Source: Peronospora farinosa
Taxonomy: Eukaryota > Oomycota > Peronosporomycetes > Peronosporales > Peronosporaceae
Assembly (NCBI GenBank): GCA_947646735.1
Contig: CANTFK010000228.1
Coordinates: 186,001-250,000, forward strand
DNA length: 64,000 nucleotides
Direction of reading: 5' to 3'
Numbering within the stretch: position 1 is the stretch's first letter; every line of letters starts with the position of its first letter. The notes under the pieces are model-generated. The model did no database searches, was not told the origin of the DNA, and worked only from the letters and a program-made list of their open reading frames with translations. The translations under genes were made by a program, and so were the position numbers. This document shows, piece by piece, positions 7,344-40,963 of this stretch.

Positions 7344-7880
7344 TGTAACGGGGTGAGCCCATTAGTAACGGGGTGAGCCCATTTGTAACGGGGTGAGCCC
7401 ATTAGTAACGGGGTGAGCCCATTTGTAACGGGGTGAGCCCGTTACATAATATTGACACTTATATGAAGTGTCAAAAAAAATATTATTATAACTAATAATA
7501 TTTGACAATATTATTTTTTCTTATAATATTGTTCCTAGATCTGCTTAAAGTTGGAGATGCCCTCTCATTGGTTGATATGGGCCATCATATCAACCAACGC
7601 GCTGACCAATGACCGATGGACGCGCGCAATGAGTGGAGGGCAAGTTGTCAACATACATAGTTGTAGTTTGATATAGTTAACATAGGTTATAACAGATTAG
7701 TTTTATTAGACAGTTAACTATATTAAATACAGTTTTCTTTTTCTTCTCAACTAAGCGTGTGCTTAGTTGTTTGACTTCCTCTGCTCACATGTACGTGAGG
7801 TATTGAGGCACCTGCTTTCACTGTCATCAGTGAAGGAAGACTATACTGTAATAAGTATAGTCGGAGGGTGCCCCATTACA
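7344..7880 (+). repeat. 5' LTR of element 1
   Basis: Begins TGTAACGGGG and ends CCCCATTACA. It matches 14778-15248 over nearly its whole length. It is longer than the 3' copy because its first 20 bases are present five times. Confidence 0.92.
7345..7440 (+). repeat. Five-fold 20-bp tandem repeat at the LTR edge
   Basis: Units start at 7345, 7365, 7385, 7405 and 7425. Each begins GTAACGGGGTGAGCCC; the four extra units end ATTA or ATTT alternately. The 3' LTR has a single copy. Confidence 0.93.
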
Positions 7881-7902
7881 CCTGGTAGCATTTCGTGGTC
7901 CG
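7881..7902 (+). other. Primer-binding site candidate of element 1
   Basis: Directly after the LTR comes CCTGGTAGCA then TTCGTGGTCC. Elements 2 and 3 have nearly the same sequence at the same place. The tRNA is not identified. Confidence 0.5.
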
Positions 7903-7927
7903 TTCAGCGACCACCGCACCATCCGCT

Positions 7928-8862
7928 ATGGAATCAGCGGGTGATGATTTCCGCTATTTGAGTAACCTCGAATGCAATGCGGTTCAGCGTATGGCTGAAA
8001 CCATCGGCAACCCTGTCGTTGGTGCCATGTTGCTCTCTCTTAGCGGAGACGACCAACATGCAACCATCGCCAAGTTCATACAACATGAACTTGACGAAGT
8101 TGTAAAGAAACTCACCTTGCTACAGGAGCAAGGTTCTCAACAGGTTGACCTGTTGAGAGAACAATGCGCTCAACAAGCTGACTTGTTGATGCAGCAGGGT
8201 GCTCAACATTCTGAACTGTTGAGACAACAGCAGGCTAGTGCTGTTGCTGCCGGTTAACGTATACACGTCGACCCGAGTCCTTGAAGATTGATGTCTCCAA
8301 GTACAAGGCAGTCGAAAGCGACTCCTTGCTAAGATGGTTCGTCGAGCTCGACGATGCCATTGAGGCTCGTCGCATCAATGATGATGCGATGAAGGTCAAG
8401 TTCGCCATGTCGAACTTGGCAGGACGTGCCAAAGCTTGGGCCTTAGGGCTCAAACTGCACGACCCATACGTTTTCCCAACGTATGACGTCTTCAAGGCGC
8501 GGCTCAAACACACGTTTGAACCGCCTCGCGCCGAATTCAGGGCTCGAGCTGAGCTCCTGGATTTGAAACAGGGTAAGCGTGGTATACACGCTTACGCCCA
8601 ACACGTACGATACCTCGTCAGTTGTATCGTGCTGAACCCAATCGATGAACACAAGCAGGTTACTGTGTTCATCAAGGATCTGACAGATGGTCCTGTCAAG
8701 ACCCACCTGTTCCGCTTGAAACTAGAATCGCTGAATCAAGTGATCTCTGCAGCGGAACAGGAGGACTTTAGCCTAAAAATGCTCACGTCCACTCGGGGTC
8801 CTATCGTCCACCGAGACGACAGGAGGGCGGAGGTCCAGAACCAATGGACCTCTCCTATGTAG
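7928..8862 (+). pseudogene. Gag of element 1, two frames
   Basis: An ATG at 7928 opens a frame (108 codons) with a glutamine-rich heptad repeat (LLREQCAQQADLL). It stops at 8254-8256. Reading resumes one frame over at 8281 (LKIDVSKYKA) with the retrotransposon Gag domain (LAGRAKAWALGLKLHD, VFKARLKHTFEPP) to 8862. The break between them looks like an indel, since the second part has no ATG of its own near its start. Capsid-forming role is inferred from the family. Confidence 0.8.
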
Positions 8863-9633
8863 AGAGCGAGCGACCTCGCTCTCCAGGATACAAGCGATTG
8901 CAAAAGTGCAATCGCTGTCAGAAGTTGGGCCACTACTCTTATGAGTGTAGTGCTCCACACCCAGTGTCTCGTAACACTGGGAGTGACGATCGTCCGTCTG
9001 CCAAGAAGGGCCAGAGACGTGGGTCCCACGTTGCTGCAAAATCGCAACAACGTGGTGGACCATCAAAAAACGGTCGGGGTCAGTAGGGGCGGAGCGCCCT
9101 ACTGATCCAGCAACGTCAAGAGAGTTCGCGGGAATCTTGACGAAGGTTGCTCCCAACACACAGTCACTGTGTGTTGCCGCTCCCAATGATGAGGTATCCC
9201 TCATCACATTGAAGATCGAAGTGACACAATCAACTAGGGCGCGAAGTGACATGGAGAACATGTCACTTCGCGCCCTAGTTGATTGTGGGGCTTCGAACAA
9301 CTTTGTTCGACGCCAATCGTTAGATGATCGTAGGCTCAAATATGTTGAGCGCGAGACCCCTCCAACGGGATGACGGTGCGCCTTGCGACTGGCGCATCCG
9401 TAACAGTAAAGAAACGTGTAGTGGGAATTCACTACACGCTTGAAGGCAAAAAGTACGGTGATGATTTCATCGTACTTGACATGGATGACAAATTTGATGT
9501 CATCCTAGGATTACCATGGCTCAGAAGGTACGAGCCATGGGTCAGCTGGCAGCATCGAACCGTGAAGATGCCTGCCACTTGTTCATCAGATGGCCATCTG
9601 TTTGAACGTCTTGGAGCGTTCACAAGCGTGTGA
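8844..9633 (+). pseudogene. Gag zinc knuckle and aspartic protease of element 1
   Basis: The zinc knuckle CNRCQKLGHYSYEC (CX2CX4HX4C) lies at about 8907-8948 and binds RNA in this family. The protease follows at about 9200-9630: active-site motif LVDCGASNNF near 9270-9300, then a frame change near 9370, then VILGLPWLRRYEPWVSW, typical of gypsy proteases. The frames overlap and do not join without shifts. Confidence 0.8.
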
Positions 9634-10030
9634 TAGCACTACGAGTGAGTGCGATGGCCTCATTTGTGGTTCGGTCGTTCGTACGACTGCAAAAGTACTC
9701 AGCGTGACAGACAGTCACACTGTGAGCAAGCTGCCGGCGGCTGTGCACAAGCACAGGCAGCGCCGAAGGTTCACCACTCGAATAAGTCGAGTGGACCGGG
9801 ACAGGAATGCTAGCCTAGAGGGCAGCATTCACCGAAGAGTAAACCGGTTGCCCAGAAGCGGCAACACGGTAATCCTAGATCAACTGGAGAGTTGATCGTA
9901 GAGGATCTCGCTGTGTTTGCGCCACCACAGCTAGAGGAAGTCGATGGAACAAGTTCCATCGAGCCTGCGGGTATAAGTCCATAGGAATTAAAGCACTGAG
10001 AGAATAAGTCCCCAGGAAGTAACCGAGACG

Positions 10031-11745
10031 TTGAACGTCTTGGCTGATGACGGATCAAACGTAGGCGCTTATACGCTTGATCTGATCGCGCCTCCGAAGT
10101 TAACTTCGGAGATATCTCAGTTGCCTACGCTAGAACATAAAACGTTCTTGCGTGATCTTAGTAGTGTCAAAGTCAAGCAGATCTGTGTGCTCGTCGCAAA
10201 GGACGAGTACATGACTGACATTCGGTCAGCAACAGTTTTTGCCGAGAACGAACGGGTTCTTAGCAGCTCATCAATGGAAGAAAGTGTCCTTGGAGGAAAG
10301 ACTCGGATTGAGCGATATACATCGCAATCCTGGGAGTCGCTGAAGTCAAATCCTTTGTATAAGGATTTGGTCGAATTCAGGATGTATTTCCTGAATCCGT
10401 TCCGTGCGAGTTGCCTAAGAATAAAGGTACTCGACACGAGATCGACCTTGTTCCTGGCACAAAATATTGTGTCATGACGCAGTGACCACTGCCTCGGGAA
10501 CAGGTCGAGGCGATCGACAAGTTCTTTGCCGATCGCCTAGCAGCGGGCCATGTGAGGGAGTCAACTTCACCTCACAGCTCTCCGACCTTCTGTGTGCGCA
10601 AGGCCACAGGAGGGTGGCGGATAGTACACGCGTTCAACAAGTTCAACGCTGCAACGATACCGGCGCAAACGCCGATACCGAGAAAGGACGCAATCATAGA
10701 TGGTATGTCTAAAAGTACCTTCTTTTCGTCCATGGATCTGATGGATGGTTTCTATCAGATCCTAATACGTGAACGGGACATCCCGTACACAGCAGTGAGC
10801 ACTCCCAGTGGTATGCTCTGCGAATGTTTGATGATGCCGCAAGGGCTTAGTAATGCACCAGCCACATTCAATAAATGTTTTACATCTATTATGACCGGTA
10901 CACAAATTTGGACCGAGTTACTTCGGTGATGTGTTCGTCCATAGTCGGGCTATGGACGGGAAAACAGACGTGGAAGTCCATAGACTCCACGTCCGTAAGG
11001 TTCTTACACTTATGCGCGAGCATAAGTTGTACGCCAACCTCAAGAAATGTACATTCGCAGCTAGCGAAATACCGCTTCTTGGGTGCATCGTCGGAAATAA
11101 CGGCGTACGCCCTGATCCAGAAAAGATCAAGGCGATCACCGACTGGCCAGTGCCAGTCGATGTCAAGGGACTAAGAAAGTTCCTTGGGCTAGCGGCGTAC
11201 TTGCACAAGTACTCGCGCAAAAAAAATTACGCCGAAATGACAGTACATCTTTCTTGTTTACTCAAGAAAAATGTAAAGTGGAACTGGAACGCTGATTGTC
11301 AGCGTTCCTTTGAACGTATCAAGCAAATCTTGATGCAATCGCCAGTATTGGCGATTGCAGATCAAGACAGACCATTTCATGTGGTCTGTGGCGCCAGTGA
11401 TTTTGCAATCGGCTGTGCATGATGCAATATGATACAGACGGCGCAGAGCGCGTCATCTGTTATCAATCGCGTAAGCTGCAACCGGCTGAGTGCAATTACC
11501 CGGTGCATGACAAGGAACTCCTTGTGCTGAAGTATGCACTGGCTAAGTTTCGCGTCTATCTCTTAGTAGATAGACCGTTCATTGTGTATACAGACCATGC
11601 GTCACTACGCACGGCTGTAAAAAGTCCACACCTTTCGCAACGCATGGCGAGATGGTTGTCGTTCTTCGCGGAGTACAACTTCTCCGTGGAGTATAAGCCG
11701 GGACGACTTAACGTCGTCACCGATGCTCTTTCACGTTCGGCCTGA
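10031..11745 (+). pseudogene. Reverse transcriptase and RNase H of element 1
   Basis: A pre-RT linker (ERYTSQSWESLK) is followed by the fingers and palm (GGWRIVHAFNKFN, SSMDLMDGFYQI, MMPQGLSNAPATF). After a frameshift near 10915 the active-site strand reads YFGDVFVHSR, where the family has YFDD. The thumb and connection follow (PLLGCIVGNNGVRPDPEKI). RNase H begins at about 11370 with VVCGASDFAIG, where the family has VxDAS, and runs to TDALSR at about 11740. Two catalytic aspartates are therefore glycine, which should abolish both activities. Element 2 in this window keeps both aspartates. Confidence 0.88.
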
Positions 11746-12049
11746 ACGAGAGCCGACTGTGCCATCCGGCAGTGATGTGAACACCACTGTCGCCACGATG
11801 AGTACCAGCGTCTTGTCGTCAAGTTTACTCGACGATATTAGAATGGCATGCGCACATGATAATGATCTTGTACGCCTGATGGAGTACCTCAAGGACCCAT
11901 CCAAGCAAGCTAAGAAGCGCTTACCTGTCATGTATTGATCTTCTCTCGATCGATACACCCAGCGGGACGGCTTACTGTACTACACAGCCGTCAACAACGA
12001 CACGCCTCGTGTCGTTGTACCGCCACAACATAATCTCAGGTTACGGATC

Positions 12050-13919
12050 ATGTTTGAATGTCACGATGCACCAATAAGTGGGCATCGCGGCCGTGATAAG
12101 ACTTACCTCACGGTCAGTCGCGACTTTTACTGGCCACGCCAGTATAAGTTTGTGCGCAAGTACGTGCGTGCTTGCGAGGTGTGTCAACGAGTGAAGCCTA
12201 GTCCTTCACTCCGTGCACCATTGCAGCCTCTACCTGTTCCGGCAGAGTGCTGGGAGTCCGTATCAATGGACTTCGTCTTTGGGTTTCCCAAAGACGCTCA
12301 CGGGAATAAAGGTATTCTCGTGTTTGTAGACATGTTCCGCAAGATGGTACATCTTGTTGCTGTACCTGAGTCGATCACAGGAGAGGGCTGTGCTCGCGTG
12401 TTTATCGATACAATCCTTCGATTGCACGGGCTACCCCGTGAACTTGTGTCCGATAGGGACCCCCGGTTCACGGCTGAGTTTTGGCGTTCTGTGTTCCAAA
12501 CACTTGGAACACGGCTCACAATGTCTACTTCTGACCATCCAGAAACCGATAATCAGACTGAACGCGCCAATCGCGTCCTCGAAGAGATTCTTCGAGGGTA
12601 CGTCCACTCGTTTACGAGTTGGAGTGAGTTCTTGTCGATGGTCGAATTCGCCATAAACAACTCAGTGCATGCGTCCACGGACGCATACACCGTTCTACGT
12701 GAATGGCCTTCGCCATTCACGTGTCCCCACCTTAGTAGAGGGTGACTCAAATGTAAGGGGGGAGAGACTCGCTCGAGCGAGAACCAATCTGGCTCTTGCT
12801 CATCACGCATCGACGCTATGGTCGACGCGAAAGTAACTGAAGTCGTACCATTTCGACTTCGGTGAAGAGGAAGAAAGTAAGAGCGACGACGCTCTTACTG
12901 ATAACGATGCTGAAGATATCAGCATCTTTCGAGGTATCATAAGCGAGAACAGTAACGTTCTCGCTGAGTTAGTAACCGATATCTCTGCAGTGCACTCACA
13001 ATGCATTGCAGCCAAAAGCAACGAGTCAGCTGAGGATTTCCTGCTGACTCGTAAAGCGGTAGTCCGTTTCGTGCAAGACTCTATCGCAGAAGCGGTGGAT
13101 AAGCAAAAGCGAAACGCAGACAATAATGGAAGGGCAAATGCTCAGACATTTATTGAAGGCGATTTAGTTTTACTGTCAACAGTAAACCTACCTAAACATG
13201 TAGTGACTAACCTGGGCAGCAATAAATTGTTGCCCAAGTACATCGGCCCGTTTTGTGTATTGCGCCGCCTAGGCAACGCATACACGATCGAGTTGCCACG
13301 CAGGATGCGTACGCATCCTACGTTTTACGTGGGACGTCTTCGTCCGTACGTTCAGTACGCGGCTTCTTCGAACGACGAAGATAGCCATTACTCTCAAGAA
13401 TCCCCTTCAGATTTTTGTTGTCACGAACCAGATTTAATACCTGGTCGTGTAGAGATGAGATCTTCCCATGATATTGGACGATCTCCTGACGAGCTGTCGC
13501 CAGCTCGTTACTTAGAGAATGAAGTCGCCGTTCGTTCTCCAATAGTGCGACAGCATTGTCTGCCCGAGACTTTTCATGGTCAAACCCAAGCTGTCGCACA
13601 ATGTCCTCTAAGCGGCGACGCTTATCCCGTTCGTGATCAACATCACAACGTAGCTCACGAGTTACACGGGCAAACCCGTCTAACTCACCAGACAAGTCCG
13701 ATGAAAGAATCGGACAGTGTTTTCCCTCCACCACCGAATCCACTGGTGGACTCTCATAGTGAGAAGTGCTTCCTCGTGGAACGCTTGCTAAATCACCGCA
13801 AGGTGAAGGGACGTCGGACGAGTTATCTCGTCCGATGGCGTGTCTATCCGCCTTCGTTTCTCAAACTTTTTGCGGCTAGCATAAAGTCTTCCAAACTAAG
13901 CCTCATCCCCAACGTTTAA
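12050..13919 (+). pseudogene. Integrase and chromodomain of element 1
   Basis: The HHCC zinc domain (HDAPISGHRGRD...CEVCQ) opens the frame. The catalytic core has D (MDFVFGFP), D (VSDRDPRF) and E (NRVLEEI). The frame ends at 12745. The C-terminal part resumes by 12990 (LVLLSTVNLP, KYIGPFCVLRRLGN, HPTFYVGRLRPYV). A long hydrophilic linker (about 13345-13750) leads to a chromodomain (FLVERLLNHRKVKG, SYLVRWRVYPP) that loses its aromatic-cage end and stops at 13919. Such chromodomains steer integration to modified chromatin. The linker overlaps a better-looking antisense frame. Confidence 0.85.
13318..13865 (-). CDS. Antisense coiled-coil ORF of element 1
   Basis: An open minus-strand frame of about 182 codons (13865 to the TAG at 13318-13320), lying opposite the integrase linker. 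It reads as a real protein: a polar N-terminal part (DVPSPCGDLASVPRG), then a long heptad coiled coil (ERDKRRRLEDIVRQLG, NERRLHSLSNELATARQEI, LVRDNKNLKGILE) and a basic tail (RRSKKPRTERTDED). No ATG opens this piece; it is probably the C-terminal part of the antisense gene starting at 14679, now out of frame. The sense linker over the same bases is low complexity, so the constraint may be on this strand. Function unknown; a partner-binding or regulatory role would be inference. Antisense frames beside integrase are known in some plant gypsy lineages. Confidence 0.55.
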
Positions 13920-14679
13920 GACTTTGGTGATAAACGCGTTCCAAGATTGGAGTAACGCGTCAGCCTCACGCTTCCTGTGTGGGCCATACAGTCGATGTTC
14001 AAATAATACATCGATGTAATAGTCGTTCTCAGTGCGAAAGTTTTTCGCACTGGCGTTCTGTCCGTGAAGCTTTGACGCATAAAACAACGGTATGGGAAAC
14101 CGTTCATTGGTCTTTCCAGACTAACGATCAAGCAGATGCTTCGGTAGCATCCATGGCTTGCGATCAGGATCAAGACGCAATACGTTGCGGTTTAAAGCCT
14201 CCTGCGTGTTGTCAACAGAAGTACCGACACCACGTGCATTGATGTCAGTAGAAGCACTAACATCACCCTTACGGTCCCCACCCGAATCACTATCCTTCGA
14301 CTCGTTTGGCGAGTCGTCTGATTCATCAGACGACCCGAACATTTCACGGTACATTGATTTACTCATTGTACCACGATCCCTCTTCGTAACATTCGACGAC
14401 GAGGTACCACCCCAGGGAGAGCACGAGGAGTGACACAGGTGGCTTTGAGTCGGATGCGTCATCCGACTCACCAGAGTAGTCAACGACTAACTCTGGGTCA
14501 ACATCTTCACGTGGCGAAGCGCCACGTGAACCTGCAACAGGCGTTACAGGCTGATGTTGACTTCCAGCAGACACTAATGTGTCTGCTGGCTGAGGCTGTA
14601 AAGCCTCAGTAGCGGCTGCGCATGGGCGCGCAGCCGAGCTCTTAGCTGCCTTAGCAGCGACGCGCGTTGACTTAGTCAT
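13896..14679 (-). pseudogene. N-terminal part of the antisense gene of element 1
   Basis: The ATG at 14679 lies 99 bases inside the 3' LTR. The frame begins basic and alanine-rich (MTKSTRVAAKAAKSSAARP), then becomes acidic (DYSGESDDASDSKPP) and stops at 14359. In a second frame, about 14440 to 13896, it continues acidic (GSSDESDDSPNESKDSD). After one in-frame TAG at about 14121-14123 comes a conserved-looking segment (NDYYIDVLFEHRLYGPHRK, ADALLQSWNAFITKVLN). The frame change near 14400-14440 is either a small indel or an unrecognised intron. No sense-strand pol frame covers most of this stretch, so overlap cannot explain its protein-like content. Confidence 0.5.
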
Positions 14680-14777
14680 AGCGTGGAAATTGTTGGAATA
14701 AAAGAAAACCCAACAAGTGCTCCTTTCCCATAGTCACTAAACAGTCACTAATGTGACTGTTGGTTGAGGGGGGGTGA

Positions 14778-15248
14778 TGTAACGGGGTGAGCCCGTTACA
14801 TAATATTGACACTTATATGAAGTGTCAATAAAAATATTATTATAACTAATAATATTTGACAATATTATTTTTTCTTATAATATTGCATCTCCATGAGAGG
14901 GCATCTCCCTCCTTAAAGTTGGAGATGCCCTCTCATTGGTTGATATGGGCCATCATATCAACCAACGCGCTGACCAATGACCGATGGACGCGCGCAATGA
15001 GTGGAGGGCAAGTTGTCAACATACATAGTTGTAGTTTGATATAGTTAACATAGGTTATAACAGATTAGTTTTATTAGACAGTTAACTATATTAAATACAG
15101 TTTTCTTGTCCTTCTCAACTAAGCGTGTGCTTAGTTGTTTGACTTCCTCTGCTCACGTGTACGTGAGGTGTTGAGGCACCTGCTTTCATTGTCATCAGTG
15201 AAGGTAGACTATACTGTAATCAGTATAGTCGGAGGGTGCCCCATTACT
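14778..15248 (+). repeat. 3' LTR of element 1
   Basis: Begins TGTAACGGGG after the purine tract GAGGGGGGGTGA. It ends ...CCCATTAC(T), next to the TCTCC target duplication. Confidence 0.92.
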
Positions 15249-19989: not shown

Positions 19990-21270
19990 AAATCGATGAG
20001 TTCTTCGACAAAGAAGCCAAGGCGGGACAACTACGTGAGAGCAAGCCGCCCCACTGCAGACCGACCTTCTGTGTGTAACGCAACAGGCGGATGGCGCGTG
20101 GTTCATGATTATAATAAGCTGAACACGGCCACCATTCAGGTGAAAACGCCGATCCAGCGGAAAGATGTCTTCTCGAACTCCATGGGAAAGTCAACTATCT
20201 GGCCCGCGTTGGATTTGAAGGATGGCTACTATCATATTCTCATGAGAGATAATGATGTAGCCAAAACGAAAGTAAGCACCCTAAGCGGTATGCTGTGGGA
20301 GTGGCTTGTGATGCCACAAGGATTGCAAAATGCTCCGGCAACATTCAACCGAGTGGTGGCTCACGTGATGCGTCAGCACCGTGCCTACGCGCCCCATTAC
20401 TTTGACGATGTATTCGTGCATAGTAGGGCGGAGGACGTTCTGAGCGCAATAGAGTCGCACAAGCGCCATTTAGACGCTGTGTTGTAGACTCTGGGGACGC
20501 CCAACTATACGTTAGCTTGCAAAAGTGCGTCATAGGGGTCCGCGAGAATACTGTACTGGGCTGCATCGTAGGTACATATGGTGCACGAGCAGACCCATAA
20601 AAGGCAAAGGCTATCAAGGAATGGTGAGTCCCACGACACGTGAAGTATCTGCGCCGATTCCTTGGGCTCGCTAATTACTTGCATAAGTACAGCAAGAGTA
20701 ATGCAGAGCAAACTAAACCATTGTCTGATCTTTTGAAAAAGGATGCAGAATGGACTTGGTCTAGGGAGAAAGTAAATGCGTTCACATCAGTTAATCAATC
20801 TCTTGTAGAGGCACCGGTCTTGGCATTTCCAGACGCGGATAAGCCCTTTAGCGTCGTCTACGATGCAAGTAATTTTGCAATCGGCAACGAGATCATGCAG
20901 AAGGATTACAGCGACATTGACCGTGTTATTTCGTATCAGTCTCGGCTTTCGAAAGACGGCAGAGCTGAATTACCCTGTGCATGACAAAGAGCTACTTTCA
21001 ATGAAGTATACCCTTGTGAAGTTTCGGGTGCACCTCTTGGGCACCGAAACTTATGTGGTTGATGCGGATCACGCATCACTGCGGATCGCTATAAAATCAT
21101 CGCACCTCTCGCCTAGGATGGCGAGACGGCTAACATTCATCTCTGAATTCAATTTCAAAGCTGATATAAACCGGGTGAGTCGAATGTCTTGGCTGACGCG
21201 TTATCTCGCAGACCAGAGTTTGAGGCAAGGCACTAAGAAAGCAGTGTCTCGTGCTGAAGGCACAAGCGAG
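19990..21270 (+). pseudogene. Reverse transcriptase and RNase H of element 2
   Basis: Palm motifs include GGWRVVHDYNKLN, ALDLKDGYYHI, MPQGLQNAPATF and an intact YFDDVFVHSR at about 20398. After a stop at 20485 the connection domain resumes (RFLGLANYLHKYS). RNase H follows with an intact VVYDASNFAIG near 20855 and VDADHASLRIA. Several frames are needed, so the protein is dead, but both catalytic sites keep their aspartates. Confidence 0.86.
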
Positions 21271-21539
21271 TCGTCAACATTGGCAGCCATGAAGGTCTAC
21301 CATGCGACGAGCTCAATGGCCTCCGATATCAAGGAGTGTTACAGTCAGGATGAACATTGCCGCCTGCTGTTATATCATTTTAGTAGGCAAAATGTTACCC
21401 TTCCGTCGCACTTGAAAGCGAAGCTTAAATCGCTTAAGTTACAGTGATGGCCTGTTATGGAATCAATTGTCACCCTGTGATCCCTTGAGAATCTATGTCC
21501 CTCATGACACAGATCTCAAGCTGATGATACTTCACTAGT

Positions 21540-22110
21540 GCCGTGATGCTCCATCTAGTGGGCATCTGGGCCGTGAAAAGACATTCTTGCGAGTGTCAGA
21601 GGAATTTTGGTGTCCCCACCTATATCGGTGGGTGGCCAATATATATTCGCTCTTGTGAAGAGTGTCAGCGCATAAAGCCTGCACCATCTAGCAGTGCGCC
21701 ACTGAAGCCATTGCCGATTACAACGGATCGTTGGAAGTCGGTCAGCTTGGACTTTATGTTTGGCTTACCGCCTGACCATAAAGGCAGGACGGGGCTCGTT
21801 GTCTTTGTAGACAGACTGAGCAAGATGGTGCATTTGGCACCATGTAGCACCAAGATCTCAGGAAAAGAGGCTGCCCTCTTGTTCCCTGTTCACTTGTATC
21901 GACTACAAGGGATGCCCGAGTCCATAGTATCGGACCGGGATCCGCTTTTTACGTCGGGTTTTTGGCGACATGTGTTAGAGTTGCTGGGAAGCAAGCTCCA
22001 CATGTCAACAGCCGATCATCCTCAGACCGATGGCCAAACAGAACGGCCCAATCGAGTTGTGACGAATGTGTTGCGCACAATAGCGACTCCTAAATAATGG
22101 AGCAAGCAAT
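21540..22110 (+). pseudogene. Integrase zinc and catalytic domains of element 2
   Basis: The CEECQRIKP half of the HHCC domain is followed by the DDE core: LDFMFGLPPDHKG, SDRDPLFTSGFW, DHPQTDGQTERPNRVV. It is interrupted near 22095. The region to about 22300 holds short degraded pieces (FVEFDINNSSHAG). Confidence 0.85.
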
Positions 22111-22315
22111 TGCCATTCGTGGAGTTCGACATTAATAACAGTAGTCACGCCGGTACGGGTAAAATACTGTTTATATTAACGTACTGCGCCATCCTCGCAA
22201 GCCAATCTCGTTTGTACGCAACCCGAGTCTTAGTAGGGAAGGGCCCCTTGAGCGGTAATAATCCCAGAAAAATTCTGGCTACGCTGCTCCTTTATATGAC
22301 ACTGCTAACTTAGCA

Positions 22316-23355
22316 GTGGTCACGACACCTATAGGTGTCAAGGAGAAGGCACATCAAGAAATGCCTTTGCTCCTTGACGATGAAACTATAGTGTTACTAA
22401 CAGCGTCGACCCATGACCGACCCCTTATATGGGACATAGGCGATGCTAAAAGCGTGAGCGAAGCTCAGCGCTCTCTGAATACGCTATTATCCATCACACG
22501 TAGAGTCCGTGACGTAATGACAAGCGCACAGGACAAGCAAAAACAACATGCAGACCAGCATGGTCGCAAAAACAATGAACACTTTAGTGTTGGGGCAAAG
22601 TTCTATTAAGTACTGCTACCCTATTACAATGTAATTTCTGTACTAAATGGTGGTACTACTAAGCTATTGTGGACAATACGGTGGTCGAGGAAGTTGGAAG
22701 CCTAAACTATAGGCTCACTCTCCCATTGTATATGGAGACTCACCCCGTAAATTACATATGTCGTCTGAAACGTTATGTGGATCCACAAGAGATCACATAT
22801 CCGCATCAGTCTAATGAGACCGATGCTGACGTCGACTGTGAGTCGAGCGTCGTTGCCTATCAGGCGACGGGGGAGGTGAACGACTTCCCTTATACGAGTG
22901 CGACGAAAGAGGACTCGGTGATCGATGAGGACTCCGCATTGGACGAGGGTGTCTCATCACCAGTCGCTCATGCATGTCCAAACGGAGCTTCAGGCAATCG
23001 TACCCCTGACGATCCCTCTCCCTCATATCTCCTAGATCCAAAGTCAGTCCCGAGACTTGACTCGAATGATCAGCCACCTCTCTCTTCAGCGCAGTGTTTT
23101 CCACCTGCGACTGAATGGCAACAGGGTAAGCAGCCGCGAATAGTTGGGCGTAATCGCCGCTTCTATCGGGCGCCACCTGTGCTGGTGGATGCGAATGGGA
23201 ACACACCCTTCCTTGTTGGAAGGTTGTTGGCCCACCGTCATGTGAAGCATAAGCTTCATATCCTTATCAAGTGGAAGGGATACCCGAAGATCTTCGACTC
23301 TTGGGAACCGTTTTTAGCGTTGCGTGTCGACGTGCCTGGACAATTGTCCCATTAG
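22316..23355 (+). pseudogene. Integrase C-terminus and chromodomain of element 2
   Basis: The 22316-22609 frame contains the helical linker (TRRVRDVMTSAQDKQKQHADQ). The 22669-23355 frame gives the SH3-like end (YICRLKRYVDP), a hydrophilic linker and a well-kept chromodomain (FLVGRLLAHRHVKHK, ILIKWKGYPKIFDSWEP). The two tryptophans of the aromatic cage region remain, unlike in element 1. Confidence 0.82.
22811..23206 (-). CDS. Antisense coiled-coil ORF of element 2
   Basis: A 131-codon minus-strand frame opposite the integrase-chromodomain linker. Heptad-like stretch (SQVENTALKREVADHSSQV, LTLDLGDMRERDRQ), then an Arg-Ser-Pro tail (RSPHRSPSPLSSHSYKG, SRSPPPSPDRQRR). It starts at a GTG codon, so the true start must lie further in, perhaps at 23609. 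The overlap frame relative to the sense codons is the same as in elements 1 and 3. Function unknown. Confidence 0.4.
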   Translation of the reverse strand: MCSHSHPPAQVAPDRSGDYAQLFAAAYPVAIQSQVENTALKREVADHSSQVSGLTLDLGDMRERDRQGYDCLKLRLDMHERLVMRHPRPMRSPHRSPSPLSSHSYKGSRSPPPSPDRQRRSTHSRRQHRSH

Positions 23356-24519: not shown

Positions 24520-27500
24520 TCATACGTACATCCGATCGGTTAATACTCTTTCTTCTTCTCTTCCACTTTTTTCTTGGACCCTCCCAGACCCCTTGATGCG
24601 AAGTTGGCTCCAATCCGGTGCGGTTTCCCCTTGGTAGCCGTAGTCAAAAAAGAGCTCTTCACCCTTCGCAATATCTTGCTGCGCCCAGATAGAAATTCGG
24701 TGCTCGCCACCAACAGTCAGAACTTTGCTTTTGCATTTTTTGTTCGTTGTCGAGTGGTTTGCGAATTTGCTTTTGTTGCCCTTGCGAATTGCGTCAACTA
24801 CAGAGTCATCATCAACATCGAACAAAAAGCTGATAGTCATCTTGTCATAGATACTGCCACGGCGTTCTGCTTCGTCCTGAGAAAGGAGCGCTCCGTGGTA
24901 CTCGTAGATGAACTCGCCACGCTTGATCGGCTCTAAGGCAAAGGCCCCCCATCCGTGGGTGGTAGAGTATCCGACACCAACTTTCTTGTGCAGACCTCGC
25001 AGGATATTTACGTTACAACAGATACCTAAGTCCAATGCAGACATGTTTCTGCGCTCCTTATCGAAAATCAATGCCGGGACTTCGCTAGCACCACAAGTCA
25101 CACACAAATCGGGGTTACACTCGCGCGCAGCGATGAAACACGGGCACGCCTTGGTTCGGCAGTTTCCAAGGCTGCACTTGCACCCTGGGAATCTGTCACC
25201 ATGTCACATTCAAACATACCAATTAGTGAGGAATTGATTTTGCAGGAAAATCAAACAAACGAACCGGTTGGGACAGTGGCGTGAGCATGAACACGCCTTG
25301 TGACACGTATGATCGCGTGTCATGCATGAGCAACCCGTCGAATCGCACGCACCCTCATGATCACATGGCTCATATTCATGGTTCGCCCCCTTGTCCTTCA
25401 AGCAATTGTTTCTAGTCTTGTTAAGCAGACTTCGATTGCTACTGTTGCGCGATTTCAGCGCTCTACTACGCTTTCGGCCATTGTGATTGGAACGGGCTTC
25501 ATGTGACAGCGGCAAGATGTCCATCGCGCTCGTGCGAGTTCGTTTGCCGTTGCAATCATATTCCAACAACGCCTTAACTTCCTTGCACGTTGCTGACTTA
25601 CTAGTGGAAGAAATGAGACACGGGTTGTCGCCAATGATGTCCCGAAGCTTCCGTAGTAAGGTCAGCTCGGTGTCGCTCATTAACTTCACAATGTCTGTAG
25701 AAGCAGTGGAAAATTCAGCTTTCCAGCACTCGTTTAAGCACTTCTCGTCAGCTTGCTGTGACTGATGGACAATGGCAGTCACTTGGCCGCAGTAATAGTC
25801 ATCAAGGTACTCAGACTCATCTGCCACCTGCGGGTATATTTGGGCGCGATAAGGCCCAGATTGCTTCTTTTGAAATGGTCGAGCACCTTGCATAATCAAG
25901 CTTTGGCTTGCTGAAGTACAAATTCTTGTCAATGCGCGAGACGATCGACGAGTTTCTTGCAAATGTTCGGTAGTTGTCACTTCTCCGTCTGCAACAATCG
26001 TGTAGTTCGTTTCGCTAAGCCCGAGTTCCCCATCAATGCCCTTATCGGTATGCACATACCCGCTGTGTAACCCCTCGCTTTGGAAACTATCGACAGCAGT
26101 GTAATTACTACTATCTGGTGCGCCAGCGCTAGTCCGGGGACTTACGGTAGATACGCAACTTCCGGAGCTACGGTCTGTTGGTCTTAGGTCGTGGCCGGAC
26201 TGCAATTTCGCAAGGGTAGCAAATGCGACAGGTGACAGGCGGACCGAGGGGTAAACAGGATCAACCCGGTGGGACGGAAGCGGATGCTCAATGCCATGCT
26301 CGAGACAATGGTAATCGTAACACATACGGCAGAACATGTCACGATACGTTTCAATCAATTCCGCGTAGTTCTTGGTTGATCGTAGCCCCAAACCATAGCT
26401 ACGGTTTGAGTGATGCCTTGCCAGATTTGAGTCGAAATAATTTGGCGGTGGAGTTAACCGTTCCGCCAGGGTCTTTTGACAATCCGTAATGTCTTGTAGT
26501 GATGGTTCCAAGGATACCAATTTCGCCAGCGGAAACTCTTTTGGCTTCCTTGAGATCAGCTTTTTTGCCTCCTTTATGCGCCGTGCTGCGAGATTAAACG
26601 AATCATCTAACTTTTTCATCTCGCTGTAATCCGAGTAAGCTTGAGCAAACCCGAGCACATTTTTCAGCGCACTGAACACATTGTCGGTAGTTCCGCATTC
26701 ACATACAACAAGACGCAATAAACACTCATTCACCTCGCCATCTAGGCCAAGTGACAGACTTGAACTCTTGGGTCCAATCGCATCGTACCAAGCTTCATCG
26801 ATATCTGCACCATCATCATCTTCTCCGAAATATGGCTTGTAGTGCAAAATTAAATCGTCCTCCGCTCGAATGTTTGCTTTCAAGCCGATGTAAGCAGTGC
26901 TTTTGCTTAGTGGTCGACTGTAAGGCAGCTGATTAACGTCTTGTGGAAACACTTTCTCTTCGACACTTAGCGTTTCACCCAACATAGTGTAATATCCCAA
27001 TGACAATGCTTGCGTCAATTTTTCTTGCTTCATTTGGTTAAGTAGAGACTTGCTCAACACAGCCACATCACCCAGACGTTTGCCCTGTGCTACAGTCGAT
27101 TACATGATCAGCCAACGTACGATTTTTTGCACTCAGGACGGAGCAAAAATATATACAACGTACTTTGGTAGTGCACGCCCTGCTTCTTAAGAGCCTCGTG
27201 TGCAGCGAGATATGTTTTAACCTTCGCTCGCGCTTCAATAAGAATAGCCGTCGTTTTTCGCTGGCGGCATGCTCGAAGCCTGGGCAATTCGCGATGGATT
27301 AATTCAGTAACGAGGGTGTCCATGTCTTGTTGTGGAATATTTTGCTCAGGCTTTGCAGACTCTTGCGTAGATAAAGGAAACTGTGTTGATAAGCCAAGCT
27401 GAGGAAAGATTTTGCACCTTCTTCTCAGGCTACCGTCCACATCTACGCATAGAAGAACAACAATATAGATAGTTAGTAAAAAGAGTGGTCAGAGTAACAA

Positions 27501-28921: not shown

Positions 28922-30518
28922 TAGCTGCGGATATTAGCACAAGTTGTTAGAATTAAAGCGTACATAGAGAAAGTAGCTGCATAAGTAGCAGCGCAAGATA
29001 TATGTGAAGGCGTCTTGTGTAGCAATGACCGTAAGTCCCGAGCTGTACGCGATGATACGAGCAGGTGATGAAAGACGTACCTATTCGTGGTCTTGTTCGA
29101 GTAAGCGCGAAATATAAAAATTGAGACTGAGACGAATAGTTTAAAATATCAAAGATGACAGGATTTATACCATTATTGTTTTAGGTAACAGGAAATTCTA
29201 CAAAATTTATCCTTTATGTATAATTATAAAAATCTTCGCAAAACTTTCCGATTACATTTATTTGGTTCATTGCTAGCTCACCACTTTTGTGCTTCTAGAT
29301 AAACGCACAAAGAGCTGACTATGGCTATGGCTAAGTCAAATCCTGTGTGTTCGTCATTTTTTTGTCTTCGCTAAGGTGCAAGGCTAATCGAGGAGCGGTT
29401 TGGCAATCGTATGATTCTAGACTCTGTTTGTATCGGGGTTACACGACGGTTGGATAAATACGTCAAACGTTACGTCACGATTGTAAGCTATGTAGCTCTG
29501 CTAATGTACACGGTTCATTCATCCGTTATTCAACTAGGCAATCGAATTTCAACTTTAGACGTACATCGGCGAATCTTAGCACGCGCCACTTACACGTCAT
29601 CGCTCGATTGATTCAACGGGGATCAACCAGAACTTTTCCTTCCTTACCTACCCTCCCGGCTGTGAGTCGCGTTGCCTTTCCTAATGCATCATTGCATCAT
29701 TGGAATCACACGCGAGCGTACATTGGTAACGGTTTCTATTTGCCGTCACAAATGTATAACCTTATAAAAAATCCAGCTGTAGTAAGCAAAGCATTAACGA
29801 CAAGTGATGAGTCGCCGGATGCATTAAGTAATTCTACTAATAAAAAAGGTATTTATAATGGGAATGCTGGCAAGGCCTTTACTACCATGAAGTGGAGCTC
29901 AAGGACCCTTTCATAAAAGATCCAATTAAGTGTTTTTAACTGCTTCTACATGTTCCCAACTGCTTCAGCTTGTTCTAAACGGCTTCGACTGGTTTCCAAC
30001 TGCGGCACCTCAGGAGCGCATTACAATAGTTGTAATCTATCACTAGGCTCACACCATACTATTTTAGAAACGTCGTTCATTTTTGCCATACAAGTCCTAC
30101 TTACCTCTCCGCGAAACTCTGCCAAAAATCTCAGTGGCAAGTACAACCTGGGACCATGAGTCCGCACGAGAATACACCTCATATATTGTCCGTTATCTCT
30201 GAAGCAGACCAAACATTTACTAACTGCCAGCAACTTCATCCAACGGCCATCCAACTTGTTGAAGCACCTTTCTCTTGAAATAGAGAGAGGCGTGTTTGTG
30301 TATGCACAAAAAGATGTAAAGACGCAGCGTCGACGACTGTATGGGTAGAAACCCCCCAAGCCAGCTTGTCGTGACCATGAATGCAGACATCTATGTGAAG
30401 CTGGGCTTAAGCATGGAAACTTCTGGCCGATGTTGTCATTTACGACATTTAAGCAAGATGTCGAGGGCTATATGCCCAAGGTTACACGACCCGTTAGTAC
30501 TTTAATGAGACACAACAT
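28922..30518. other. Intergenic, degraded LTR traces
   Basis: No supported gene. Near 29434-29452 a GGGTTACACGACGGTTGG stretch resembles the start of the solo LTR at 15761. At about 29938-30010 a 20-base unit (CTGCTTC.. with TGTTC) repeats imperfectly three times. The first part must hold the E(z) promoter. Confidence 0.45.
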
Positions 30519-30787
30519 GTGACCCACCCTTGTGAATGTGACCCACCCTTGTGAATGTGACCCACCCTTGTGAATGTGACCCACCTTTGTGAATGTGACC
30601 CACCCTTGTGAATGTGACCCACCCTTGTGAATGTGACCCACCCTTGTGAATGTGACCCACCCTTGTGAATGTGACCCACCCTTGTGAATGTGACCCACCC
30701 TTGCGTATGTGACTCACCCTTGCGTATGTGACTCACCCTTGCGTATGTGACCCACCCTTATGTATGTGACCCACCCTTACGTATGTT
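30519..30787. repeat. 19-bp minisatellite, about 14 units
   Basis: Unit GTGACCCACCCTTGTGAAT, with the last units drifting to TTGCGTAT and TTACGTAT. Because 19 is not a multiple of 3, all three minus-strand frames stay open and encode the same 19-residue cycle. The unit resembles an internal stretch of the element 2 LTR. Confidence 0.95.
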
Positions 30788-31647
30788 ATATACATCACGT
30801 TGGAGGTAGGGTGTCCGGCAAAGCCCCAGGCTGAAGCCCAAGGGCTACTTCCTAACGTATTCATGGTATTGCCTGGATATCTAAGACTTTGTTGGAATGA
30901 TTGGGACCCCTTTGTCATTTACCTGTAAAAGTTTACCCCACAATCAGAAACAAATCGAGCAAACATTTCCAGACGCCAGGCAACATGAACGATCGTGATG
31001 CCACTCCTGATCCCGTTGCCTCCACCTACATGCCCGTGGAATGGCAAGACATGTTTAGCCAAATTGGTCAATTAGATTAAAAAAGGGTCCCCCTCTAAAA
31101 AGTCTAGATTCTTTGCGCGCGTTCGTAAAAGCTGGCTAGATCAATCGATACGATGCACAGTGTAGAGTCTGCGCGGAAATTCAGAAGGCGGCTCGATCGA
31201 AGAAAATGATGAAAGCTTGATCGAAATGTGTACGGTAGTTACAGCAAAAGCCCGTAAGATTGCGTATAAGAAGATAATCAAGATCCTGGGTGAGCATCGA
31301 TTATATTTTCTTAAGTTTGTTTGAAAACAACAATTGAGCTAATGGCTCATTTCATTTGCTTGTATGGTTTACGGGCCGCCAGATTCGCAAACATGTTGTA
31401 ATTGACGAAAGATCAGTTGAATGTAAGGAAAACGGTCACCATAAGCGTCCCCAGCACAACTTGAATACCTGCGCAGGAGATCGAAATAAAGCTGCGCAAT
31501 TTTGTCTAGGATAATACGTCGGTGCAAACCAAAACTCGTCAGGATCACGATGGACGCGGATAAGACGGCTGGAGCTTAAGCAACCTTTGACGGAGAAGTA
31601 CCATGTGAGCAGTGCAGGGTGGATGTTATCTTGCGATTGCGTTGCAT
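30788..31647. other. Unassigned, possible retroelement remnant
   Basis: A short frame from an ATG near 30985 (MNDRDATPDP) stops within 32 codons and could be a decayed gag start. Nothing else is recognisable up to the LTR at 31648. Confidence 0.3.
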
Positions 31648-31967
31648 GGGGCTAGAGCTCCGTTACTGCACACACTATATGTCTTACGGGGAAGGGTAAG
31701 AGAGTACGCAATAATTAGCGTGCTATGGTAAATTTTAACTCTGATTTTTATATTTTATGTTTTTTGACTAAGTACGAGTTGTTACCAAACTCATGGGAAC
31801 CACTCAGCTACAGATCTCTCTCCTATTGGCTGATAATGAGACTGATTCTCACTTACCTGCAAATAGAGATACGAATGGCTACACCGGCTATCTCGAGTGT
31901 AGCATATAACTACTTATGTAATACGAAATTAACGAACCCTAATTGTGTAACGGTACACCCCGTTACG
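31648..31967 (-). repeat. 3' LTR of element 3
   Basis: In minus orientation it runs from GTAACGGGGTGTACCG to CTCTAGCCCC. It matches 40964-41284 with scattered differences. Confidence 0.85.
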
Positions 31968-32075
31968 CCACCCCCCCCCACACAAAATTGCACAAAACAC
32001 TCCTGGGTGCGACAAAACACAGGGAAGGATTCGACCCAGTCAAAACACAGCATCATCAGGCTTTCGCAGACAATC

Positions 32076-33422
32076 ATGGCCTCGAATAACACCACTGGAA
32101 CCATTTTAACACGGCAAACGAGAAACGACGGCGAGCAACTCCTGGCACCGTCCAACGTGGCGTTGCCCATCCATCGGCGAGCATATGCGGAAAGTCTTCT
32201 CGTCTAGGAGTAGTACGGCTGCAGCGGAATCGAACGTTCGCGTGGCGATGAAGAGATGCGCGAGATGTGGCGACGATAGAGATGTAATTGGGGAAAACCG
32301 ACCTCGGCTACTTATGCCGTAAGACTAGCTTCGCTGGACGAGTCTTGGACCGCATTCGTCCGCCGGTGGAATATCAAGACGTCATTTGCCGAACTCGTAC
32401 CGATACGCGAAGAGCAACATTGTCGTTATGGGCTCGCGGATACACGCAAGCAGGTCTTGTGCCGCGGACCGCCCTTCTTGCTTTGTGCACGGAAATTTTC
32501 ATCATTGCGAGCGCCACGGTGTAGCGCGGCCAAGCCGCGCTCAATGGATGACCATTCTTGGCGATTTTCCGATTTACGAGGAGAAGCGCACGTGATTGGG
32601 AGGTATGAACGAGTGCGTGATGATCACATACGGGCTCATGGATGGATTCAAATAAACATGGACGTGCGTCAAAACTCTGCACCGACCCTATGGATTCGTT
32701 CTCGAATGGTCAAGGTTCCAACATCGCGACCTGCGCGGCGTTCTCTATCAACGAGTCCTCCAATATCGCGAGCGCCGAGCAGCTCGCGATCCCGCTCACC
32801 TCCCGGTCGTATTCGCTCACGATATCCGGAACATCCGCGAGAAGTGTTGGGCGAGGTTCCAACGTATCGCTATTCGGAAAATAGCCGAGTCAGCGAACGC
32901 GATAATATCGCGTTTTCGGAACGAGGTTTGTCTGAGCGCGGGCGGCGCCATGAACAGTCTGAGTTGGTTCACGATGTTCCAAGATTCTTTCCACAAGCCA
33001 ACGTCGATTTCCAGCGCTGTCGACCAGCGGTGGTGGAACGTCGCGCTAAATTGCAGTGTGAGGCACCGGAGTCTGAACGACCGATGCCGACTCATTCGGT
33101 CGTGGCGCAGCTCCAGGAGGTTGATTGGCGGGTGACGTTCGTAGACCATGATGCGAGTCAATCACGGGAGCTGGCTGAGGCTGCGGATAGTCTCGCGGAG
33201 GAAGCTTCTTCTGCTATTGCTGGGTTCGCTCAGCTACACGAGCGCTTGGATGTGTCAAATGCTGCTATTCGACGGGACAACGCGGAGTTGCTCGGGCTTC
33301 GCCAGCCGGATCCGCCAAGACTTCCGCGTTATAGGGGACCGCGTTATGCATCTGCATCGGATGAGTCGACGACGGGAGAACCGCCGGGCAGTACCGCTTG
33401 GGACAACCGACGTAGAAAGTAG
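32076..33422 (+). pseudogene. Antisense coiled-coil gene of element 3
   Basis: The ATG at 32076 lies 109 bases inside the 3' LTR and opens 43 codons (MASNNTTGTILTRQTRND). After degraded frames, the 32457-33422 frame reads through a Ser-Arg-Pro-rich part (PSSSRSRSPPGRIRSRY), an acidic-helical part (SRELAEAADSLAEEASSAI, LHERLDVSNAAIRRDNAEL) and a basic end (NRRRK). The segment IRRDNAELLGL recalls VRDNKNLKGI of element 1. The TAG falls opposite the same integrase codons (HPTFYVG) as in element 1. Function unknown. Confidence 0.5.
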
Positions 33423-33545
33423 GATGTAGACGCATCGACGAAGGGATGTACAGTTCTTAGGCATCCCCGTTCACTTTAATTATGTGAATGGACCAATATA
33501 CCGTGGTGGTAGTTTCGGTGTGCCAAGATTTGTCACTGCGTTGGG
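33423..33545 (-). pseudogene. Integrase C-terminal fragment of element 3
   Basis: On the minus strand this reads AVTNLGTPKLPPRYIGPF and then, after degradation, MRLHPTFYVG near its end. It continues the integrase broken at 35885. An in-frame TAA interrupts it. Confidence 0.7.
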
Positions 33546-33568
33546 TATGTGTGGTGAAGTGCCAGAAG

Positions 33569-34045
33569 AATCGGGGCCCAGGGTACCAAGGCCCCAGGGT
33601 ACCAGGGTACAGGGGCCCCAGGGTACAAGGGCCCAGGCCTCGCAAGGTCTTAAGGTTCAATCGAGGGTCACCAGGGACACGGTTTCCAGTCACCAGGGAC
33701 CGGAGTACTAGTCACCAGGGACAGGGTTTTCAGTTACCGGGGACAGGGATACCAGTGACCGGGGACAGGGTTTCTAGTAACCGGGGACAAGGGTATCAGT
33801 CACCAGGGACAGGGCTCCAAGGACAGGGGTACCAGCTACCGGGGACAGGGGTATCGAACGTCCAGGTTACCGGGGACAGGGATACCAGTTACCGGGTACA
33901 GGGTTTCTAGCAACCGGGGACAAGGGTATCAGTCACCAGGGACAGGGCACCAGGGACAGAGTACCAGCTACCGGGGACAGGGGTACCAGTCACCGGGGAC
34001 AGGGGTACCAGTTACCGGGGACAGGGGTATCGAACGTCCAGGGTC
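33569..34045. repeat. 22-bp GC-rich minisatellite
   Basis: Units of about 22 bases built on GGGGACAGGG and CCAGTCACC or CCAGTTACC. About 15 imperfect copies, preceded by GGTACCAGG-type repeats. G-runs could allow quadruplexes. Confidence 0.9.
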
Positions 34046-34504
34046 AAAGGTACAAGGTTACCCTACCGTGCGCACACCAGGACCCGAAAGGGCCAGTGCC
34101 CCGAGGTGGTCCAGGGTCCTAAGTTCAAAGAAGGTACAAGGTATTTCTACGTGCAGAGACAGTACAGGCTCCAAGGTCCAAGGGCCCACGGTACAAGAGA
34201 CCAGGGTATCAGGGACCTGGGTACAGGGTGCAGGGTACCGGGGTGCCGGGGCCCAGGGTACCAGGGTCCCAGGGTACCAGGGTAACGGGGTCCAGGGGTA
34301 CCGGGGCCCAGCTGTGGAGAAGTGCCAGAGAAATGGGGGGGCCTTCGAAGTTATTATAATAACTGGCGTGAAAGATCTCGGTCACTCTCTTGAATGAGTG
34401 ACAGGGAGTGACCAGGGCCCCGAAGTGGTCCAAGGTCCCGAGTTCGGAGAAGGTACTAGGATGTCCTACACTACAGACTAAAGGACTAGTGCTGCTAGGG
34501 CAGC

Positions 34505-35035
34505 TTAGGTGGACCCCAGGTAACAGGTGGGTCCCAGACAACAGGTGGACCCAGGTAACAGGTGGGTCCCAGACAACAGGTGGACCCAGGTGACCGGTGG
34601 ACCCCAGGTGACAGGATGACCCAGGTGACCGGTGGACCCAGGTGACCAGTGGACCCCAGGCGACTTGTGGGTCCCATGTGACAGGTGGACCCCAGGCGAT
34701 AGGTGGACCCAGGTGACTGTTGGACCCAGGTGACCGGTGGACCCCAGGTAACAGATTGACCCCCCAGTGACAGGTTGACCCAGGTGACAGGTTGACCCAG
34801 GTGACCGGTGGACCCCAGGTAACAGGTGGACCCCAGACAACAGGTGGACCCAGGTGACCGGTGGACCCCAGGTGACAGGTTGACCCAGGTGACCGGTGGG
34901 CCCAGGTGACCAGTGGACCCCAGGCGACTGGTGGATCCCAGGTGACAGGTGGACCCCCCGTGACAGGTGGACCCCGGACAACAGGTGGACCCAGGTGACC
35001 GGTGGACTTAGGTGACCGGTGGACCCCAGGGAATA
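34505..35035. repeat. 18-19-bp minisatellite
   Basis: Units of the type CAGGTGACCGGTGGACCC with variants ACAACAGGTGG and AACAGGTGG, nearly 30 copies. Long minus-strand frames across it (GHLGPPVTWG cycles) are a by-product. Confidence 0.9.
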
Positions 35036-35884
35036 GAAGACACAAGGCTTCCTTAAAGTGCAGAGCCGGTACAAGTCCCATGTCCTAAAAGAGCCAGTTG
35101 TTCTTCCACAAGTTGACACGTGGTACTATCCAGATCAAAGGGTTAGGGTTTGGCAAGAAAAGCATACAGAGAATAAGATAAATAAACACACTCGAATTTG
35201 CATTACACGTGGCAGCTCCAAGCGCCTCCTCTTAGCTTCTCCGTCACCTCACCTATTCCGGGCGGGATACCCTTTGGCCCACCGACGTCAGGTGAGGTGA
35301 CGGCTCAAGCAACGCAAGTTGAACCTCAGGATACTTGGCCTGAGGTGTCAAGTTAGTGTCAAGACTCAAGTGCGAGCTTGTTTCGATCTACCCACCTGTT
35401 CCGGGGAAGGGGTTTATTTTGGCCCCCCCCCCCGTTGAAGACAGACGTGTGGTAAGATTCAAGCTCGAACGAACCCCAGGAAGTATTTTGGCCTGTGGGT
35501 TCGTACCCATTCTACGACCCGCTATAGGAAGCGGTTTCCCTGCGGGGAACAAGAAAAGGGGTCGAAAGACCAAGAAACCGTTAGCCACCGAAGGGGTACA
35601 TAGTACCAGGTGCACTGCTCTCGACCCAGTCGATTGAGCCCAAGAAACCCTGAGCCCGAGTGAAGTATATCCACTCGTGGCCCCCAAGTCCCGGCATACA
35701 AGACCAAGTCTTTAAGTCTTCTGCGTCTAACGAGGAGCAAGACCAGCCAAGCCGACGGGTACACAAGGTGAGACCCAAGGTTGACGCGACACGGTATCGG
35801 GGTACCCCCTCCGTAAGTCGGCAGTCCGGCGCTGTGTGTGTTTGAGGTTCTCTCACGTTGTTTAAGGATCCACTCCACCACATA

Positions 35885-37110: not shown

Positions 37111-37144
37111 AGTAGAGGACAATCGGTGATTAAAACATATCACG

Positions 37145-39778: not shown

Positions 39779-39914
39779 ACACTGAGCACAATCAAACGCG
39801 GATCATTGCTGGACGTAGTGGCATTCAGCTGTGCATAATGCACAGCGGGGATAGGAGAACGTGTCGCTACCTTAGGCACATTCTTCCGTCTTCGCCCAGT
39901 AGGACTTCTCGCGC

Positions 39915-40738: not shown

Positions 40739-40963
40739 GAAGTCTTGAATGGCTACACGTTAGAGCCGCTCAGACGTATCTTTGAGCATGGCAACTACGG
40801 TAGTAAGTCCGGCCAAGTCGGCCAGGCGACGCAGAGCTTCCCACTCGAAGGGGGTCAGATGTTCGAAGTCATCGTGTGACAACACTCCCTCCCCCCGCTA
40901 GCGCCCTGTATCGGCGGAGCGCTCATATTCGTTGGAAGGACTACGAAGTGCTACCAGTTTAAC

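Follow-up and report, generated by a model that had tools for sequence, protein, structure and literature searches.

Purifying selection on an antisense gene behind the integrase of chromodomain Ty3/gypsy elements in Peronospora farinosa

The window analysed here, a stretch of 64,000 nucleotides of Peronospora farinosa DNA (bases 186001-250000 of contig CANTFK010000228.1, within a 46.85-Mb, 274-contig assembly), contains a Ty3/gypsy retrotransposon, element 1, with protein-like frames on its minus strand near the 3' long terminal repeat (LTR). Element 1 is one of a group of Peronosporales chromodomain Ty3/gypsy elements that carry an antisense gene between the integrase/chromodomain and the 3' LTR. 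That this is a genuine, selected protein gene is close to certain. An accessory protein gene had been proposed from the sequence of the window alone (the sequence-only reading), and it is now well supported because intact copies exist, the ratio of nonsynonymous to synonymous differences (pN/pS) is below 1 where no sense frame overlaps, sister families have genes at the same position, and homologues occur in two genera. The best explanation as a whole, to which we assign a probability of roughly 0.6, combines a selected antisense gene with the expression, oligomerisation, binding and regulation proposed below; whether the protein regulates its element, taken by itself, is evenly balanced.

The copy in the window is a decayed form of this gene. 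Its minus-strand frames extend from an ATG at 14679, which lies 99 bases inward of the 3' LTR edge, to 13318, as the sequence-only reading had described, and the basic start, acidic Ser/Asp part, coiled coil and basic tail that it listed are all present. The N-terminal piece (14362-14679), beginning MTKS and passing from basic to acidic, and the acidic Ser/Asp piece in a different frame (14124-14486) are open frames that align with intact copies; the decayed core region (13919-14191), with an LLQSWNAFI stretch in a further frame, was placed by open frame and alignment; and the open frame of the C-terminal coiled coil and basic tail (13318-13860) lies opposite the linker between the SH3 domain and the chromodomain. 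Measured against an intact natural copy used as reference (L010, 1719 positions), the window copy (L001) retains 1359 positions, with four frame-changing gaps and two stops, and is about 360 bases shorter. One loss of 325 nt removed codons 286-393 of L010, among them those of a candidate zinc site (296-316), and another of 33 nt removed codons 147-157. The 1.36-kb extent first assigned to the gene therefore holds for its frames, but the full family gene has about 572 codons, and the long losses are invisible from a single copy.

Other copies in the same genome retain the whole frame. A whole-genome search with the coiled-coil piece counted 152 matches (best 150 of 272 candidates scored), and a search with a homologue from Peronospora matthiolae counted 84 (best 82 of 403 candidates scored); these copy numbers are lower bounds. 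From 64 extracted loci of this family, hereafter family 1, 18 duplicates of the same place were dropped, leaving 46 places. The open antisense frame that the sequence-only reading expected in a consensus is present in natural copies: 11 of the 46 places have an unbroken frame of about 572 codons, with no stops and no frame-changing gaps. In L010, a sense-free region of about 1044 nt and a leader of about 100 nt lie between pol and the 3' LTR, and the antisense gene shares its last third with the end of the integrase-chromodomain frame. The other five frames contain 6-40 stops over the sense-free part in the three intact copies checked. Because 11 of 46 copies are intact, the other frames carry stops and the antisense frame is under purifying selection, its openness goes beyond chance.

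Selection was measured where no sense gene overlaps. The sense frame of L010 ends near antisense codon 349, as derived from the frames, so that codons 1-348 are sense-free. Pooled across all pairs of 42 similar copies, antisense pN/pS is 0.555 over codons 1-348 (bootstrap 95% 0.44-0.71) and 0.395 over the core, codons 232-348 (0.25-0.67); the pooled pairs are non-independent, and the bootstrap over codons leaves the tree unmodelled. The substitution ratio is thus below 1 and not neutral, the outcome on which the sequence-only reading had staked its proposal. The other frames give 0.80-1.09 and 1.08-1.22 over the same two intervals. The exception is the frame on the sense strand whose third codon positions coincide with those of the antisense frame (0.67 and 0.48); within codons 1-348 of the three intact copies checked it is interrupted by 10-12 stops. 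When only the 11 intact copies are compared, the ratio is 0.571 (0.36-0.92). Against the intact set, the diverged copy L068 gives uncorrected ratios of 0.570 over the sense-free part and 0.405 over the core, and the diverged copy L065 an uncorrected ratio of 0.336 over about 55 codons.

A search of the genome with the integrase (best 144 of 3106 candidates scored) identified two further families, with integrases 61% and 59% identical to that of element 1. In each, an antisense frame occupies the same position; measured stop to stop, it has 443 residues in one (represented by L061) and 471 in the other (L062-L064), and these lengths are constant across many copies. The whole frame is free of stops in 31 of 99 matches of the 443-residue kind (best 95 of 656 candidates scored) and in 7 of 104 of the 471-residue kind (best 90 of 943). 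In all three families the antisense ATG, counted by eye, lies 98-113 nt inside the LTR or polypurine edge, which for L061 and L062 was inferred from the polypurine tract and a TGTAA-type end; a short palindrome adjoins the tract in each. The selection test in the L061 family is the clearest single result: over 285 sense-free codons in 21 copies (L061 and 20 chosen from the 99 matches, five of these with stops), antisense pN/pS is 0.277 (0.22-0.36), and four control frames give 1.05-1.98. The frame sharing third positions reaches 0.357, but the two copies in which stops were counted have 7 and 9 in it. L061 also has a second minus-strand open frame of 368 residues (L061 3289-4392) beyond the antisense gene.

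Two other elements in the window hold related frames. The frame at 32280-33422 (plus strand), within an LTR pair at 31670-41286 (element 2), is a relative of the L062 kind by profile (probability 96.3, E 1.8e-9) and by BLASTP to L062 (E 3e-7); it would be antisense to the pol of element 2, read from a polypurine-like tract beside 31969. A third, decayed element has a remnant antisense open frame at 22814-23263 (minus strand), heptad-like and arginine/serine-rich (RS-rich), with a coiled coil by eye, opposite a sense frame (22663-23352) with a chromodomain match. The gene could alternatively have been captured from the host, or stem from a second element that integrated in reverse orientation and then travelled with its carrier. 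A foreign origin would fit the absence of a convincing relative in Pfam, PDB sequence and fold searches. However, the same position and a similar distance from the LTR edge recur in three families that are about 60% identical in integrase, and roughly a hundred or more matches per family argue that any capture was neither recent nor single-copy. We consider capture improbable, an ancient one being conceivable.

Homologues are present in other oomycetes. In protein database searches (best 8000 candidates scored, at most 120 listed), 182 homologues of the family-1 protein score E<=0.001. The 120 matches listed include proteins of Peronospora effusa, at up to 92% identity, of P. matthiolae, at 37-52%, and of metagenomes, and a second, alignment-based search listed the same groups. 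Two P. matthiolae clusters comprise 1335 and 524 sequences. There are 17 homologues of the L062 protein, in Peronospora destructor and in Phytophthora fragariae, Phytophthora rubi, Phytophthora sojae, Phytophthora infestans, Phytophthora capsici and Phytophthora cactorum, with one unnamed. Since the P. matthiolae homologues retain the string that lies opposite the chromodomain (GRDNSSDV or close), their sequences suggest that they too are antisense to a chromodomain.

The family-1 and L062 proteins share a predicted architecture. An AlphaFold2 model of an intact family-1 homologue has a helical core, with block means of the predicted local distance difference test (pLDDT) of 79-94 over residues 191-310 (54 at 241-250 and 70-79 at the metal-site end), then a long disordered linker and a confident helix at 443-549. 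The L062 model has the same order, with core helices at 54-196, a disordered RS-rich linker and a helix at 361-421; mean pLDDT is only 62 for family 1 and 60 for L062. Both cores contain a helix with W-x-AFI followed, 39 or 41 residues on, by [H/C]-x9-C-x6/7-C-x2-C, which reads H-x9-C-x6-C-x2-C in family 1 and C-x9-C-x7-C-x2-C in the L062 kind. In an alignment of 38 family-1 members (A2) the four candidate ligands are kept in 36/36, 35/36, 33/36 and 35/36 ungapped rows, and in an alignment of 19 L062-kind members (A3) in 18/18, 19/19, 18/19 and 17/19. Judged from this conservation, the motif is probably a zinc site. Conservation in the protein alignment peaks at codons 281-340, where no sense frame lies. 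Pfam scans of these proteins, including the first members of A2 and A3, listed no match above cut-off, and fold searches of PDB chains no match at E<=0.001; nothing convincingly related to the antisense protein emerged from Pfam, from PDB sequences and folds or from a viral fold library. Among viral contigs, 20 stretches fit a search pattern and none encodes a relative.

These features could belong to a second structural or RNA-packaging protein, Gag-like or similar to LINE ORF1, rather than to a regulator, since a coiled coil, a candidate zinc site and, in the L062 kind, a basic RS-rich linker fit RNA binding and multimerisation. The element, however, already encodes Gag and a CCHC-like knuckle (read by eye in the frame 8772-9086), and a protein expressed from the other strand would be decoupled from those of the particle; we therefore regard a packaging role as rather doubtful. 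In the explanation that we prefer, an accessory nucleic-acid-binding protein encoded by the element, antisense RNA would start in the 3' LTR or in the leader of about 100 nt and be translated; the distance of 98-113 nt between the ATG and the edge makes such a start possible. The coiled coil would oligomerise the protein, and the metal-stabilised core would bind nucleic acid or chromatin. The protein may then tune the element's sense transcription, the fate of its RNA or its integration. Opposite-strand expression would allow it to be made while sense transcription is off, a condition under which HBZ of human T-cell leukaemia virus type 1 (HTLV-1) is made.

The 3' end of the sense message would be complementary to any RNA transcribed from this frame. 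That RNA could itself be what matters, forming double-stranded RNA with the sense message and controlling copy number, with the protein secondary; RNA silencing is present in oomycetes (PMC4272539; PMC3522703). Purifying selection at the codon level and near-invariant Cys and His ligands point instead to a translated product, and a primary role for the RNA appears unlikely.

Several observations weigh against the preferred explanation. First, an hhalign comparison of family 1 with the L062 kind gives a probability of only 14% for whole alignments and 2.7% for cores, and 3 of 200 column shuffles reach the observed score; homology of the two is weakly suggested, the shared helix order and ligand spacing of the models being a stronger argument than the profiles. 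Second, the L061 protein has no detectable sequence similarity to either kind. It resembles them in where it lies and, by eye, in its acidic start and heptad-like end, and it may be an independent gene. Third, the oomycete core promoter motif of initiator and flanking promoter region (PMC3599244) scores 12/13 in the window leader, a score reached by 20 of 1000 shuffles of the L010 leader, but among 38 copies 28 reach only 10, the commonest score of shuffled sequence, with five at 11 and five at 12. Fourth, two diverged, broken copies, L059 and L067, give corrected ratios against the intact set of 0.93 and 0.72 over the whole sense-free part, and at least one other frame is lower in each (down to 0.60 and 0.57, respectively). 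The corrected core ratio is 0.36 in L059; in L067 it is 0.64, against 0.56-0.57 in three other frames. Change after these copies died could account for the missing whole-stretch signal, which counts on the negative side nonetheless.

Fifth, where the two genes overlap, the antisense frame of family 1 (0.696) and the sense frame (0.687) are equally constrained, and in the L061 family the antisense frame (0.834) is less constrained than the sense frame (0.455). Such weak constraint, together with the way in which the antisense residues opposite the chromodomain (ATGRDNSSDV) track the sense protein, is what would be expected if the antisense frame were a by-product of the integrase-chromodomain frame or of hairpins and no protein were made. 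However, both the best conservation (codons 281-340) and the strongest selection fall where no sense frame exists, and the L061 family, with few hairpins (1 in 1.8 kb, and 0 in the 0.9-kb sense-free part), has the clearest selection. The sense-free antisense frame is under purifying selection, and the by-product explanation, already contradicted by the sense-free tests, is very improbable. Chance hairpins as the source of the open frame were rejected on the same count, that the L061 family has few.

Antisense genes near the 3' LTR have parallels in other hosts. Plant Tat/Retand Ty3-gypsy elements (Grande, RIRE2, Retand) carry an antisense open reading frame (aORF) between pol and the 3' LTR in most copies and across species; it is suspected to encode a nucleic-acid-binding regulator and contains the TRP28 domain, PF04195 (PMC11963269). 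Similar to these, the elements described here have their antisense frame between pol and the 3' LTR. Unlike them, they show no TRP28 among the Pfam matches listed for the 38 A2 members (at most 25 families) and the 19 A3 members (E<=0.1); they carry a chromodomain, Retand/Tat elements being non-chromoviruses; the region between pol and the 3' LTR is about 1.1 kb rather than 2.9-6.6 kb; the C-terminal third of the gene overlaps the integrase-chromodomain frame; and the protein has a predicted coiled coil and a candidate zinc site. HBZ, together with similar antisense proteins of retroviruses, is a second parallel; it is defined by its bZIP domain, with a position at the 3' end and a bZIP coiled coil. 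It is encoded by an antisense gene of the HTLV-1 provirus and is nuclear (PMC11963269). The genes described here are likewise antisense, with a long predicted coiled coil, but no bZIP family is among the Pfam matches listed, and the virus family and host differ. Because neither TRP28 nor bZIP was listed and the elements carry a chromodomain, we take the antisense protein to be convergent with Retand aORFs and HBZ and a member of neither.

Closer to the host, the oomycete gypsy elements named Chronos have a chromodomain after the integrase and a second, plant-type RNase H (PMC5348765). Element 1 shares the chromodomain but has one RNase H (11401-11745), with no room for another before the integrase frame that begins at 11939. 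The word 'antisense' is absent from the main text of the Chronos paper, and the titles and abstract openings listed by searches of PubMed Central, where subscription journals are poorly covered, describe no antisense gene in oomycete gypsy elements. We lean slightly towards the view that an antisense accessory gene behind pol arose here a third time, independently of those in plant Tat/Retand elements and in HTLV-type retroviruses. It would be an ancient regulatory gene of Peronosporales, encoding an undescribed protein family with zinc site and coiled coil; it shares part of its length with the chromodomain frame and has reached about a hundred or more matches per family within a single genome.

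Element 1 itself comprises gag, reverse transcriptase, one RNase H, integrase, a GPY/F-like SH3 domain and a chromodomain, its sense genes being split over several frames on the plus strand. The LTRs, identical at 451 of 463 aligned positions, lie at about 7424-7879 (start set at TGTAAC from repeats D3/D8; the LTR alignment begins at 7410) and 14778-15247 (edge set at TGTAAC from repeat D8; the alignment proper starts at 14771). Pfam scans placed a gag piece (Retrotrans_gag PF03732) at 8239-8862, the integrase (H2C2 zinc finger and rve) at 11939-12745 and its C-terminus (SH3_Tf2-1, GPY/F-like, and chromodomain), which overlaps the antisense gene, at 12837-13919. A reverse transcriptase piece was recognised by eye in the open frame 10486-10929; the adjoining piece (10895-11419) has a match to RT_RNaseH_2 that passes the cut-off and one to RVT_1 that falls short of it, and the open RNase H frame matches RT_RNaseH PF17917. 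Chromo PF00385 is above cut-off in the sense frames of element 1, L061 and L062. The leader of the antisense gene (14680-14777, minus strand) contains the polypurine tract with a short hairpin beside it.

Hairpins are abundant in element 1 (7881-14777), which has 37 perfect stems of at least 9 bases with loops of 0-30 (a few overlapping), against a mean of 0.55 and a maximum of 2 in 20 dinucleotide shuffles. They are distributed over gag-pol, the antisense gene and the LTR area, and the longest listed, in coding sequence between gag and reverse transcriptase (9228-9284), joins two perfectly inverted 26-base arms by a 5-base loop. L010 has 34 hairpins in 3.5 kb (loops 0-40), L062 six in 2.0 kb, and five other parts of the window 0-2, next to the single one in L061. 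In each of six copies, 0-2 both-side changes stand against 10-30 broken pairs, which gives no support for covariation or selection on the hairpins.

Elsewhere in the window, further gypsy copies lie at 20480-23355, 31670-41286 and 41285-42962, the first two with the antisense-gene-like frames described above; the 9.6-kb LTR pair 31670-41286 appears nested in an older element. A copia-like element (52017-57011) matches SH3_retrovirus above cut-off and rve below it, and it carries LTR-type repeats at 52127 and 56718; an inverted sequence at 57790-57929, 84% like the start of the element 1 LTR, is possibly a related solo LTR. Beside the retroelements, a host gene on the minus strand (24520-27099) encodes an E(z)-like histone methyltransferase: it has CXC and SET domains, and Ezh2_MCSS matches it weakly, below cut-off. 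Minisatellite-like arrays occur at 30460-30820 (19-base spacing) and 34480-35047 (17/18/35/53-base spacing).

Antisense genes in this part of a retroelement had been known from a few plant lineages and retroviruses; in the genes described here, the near-invariant Cys and His ligands and the coiled coil provide concrete, testable handles. Many 'uncharacterized' oomycete proteins would also be accounted for: the two large P. matthiolae clusters are probably antisense retroelement genes rather than host genes. Several high-copy families with selection at the codon level are found here in an unrelated host group, and this recurrence argues for a shared kind of function.
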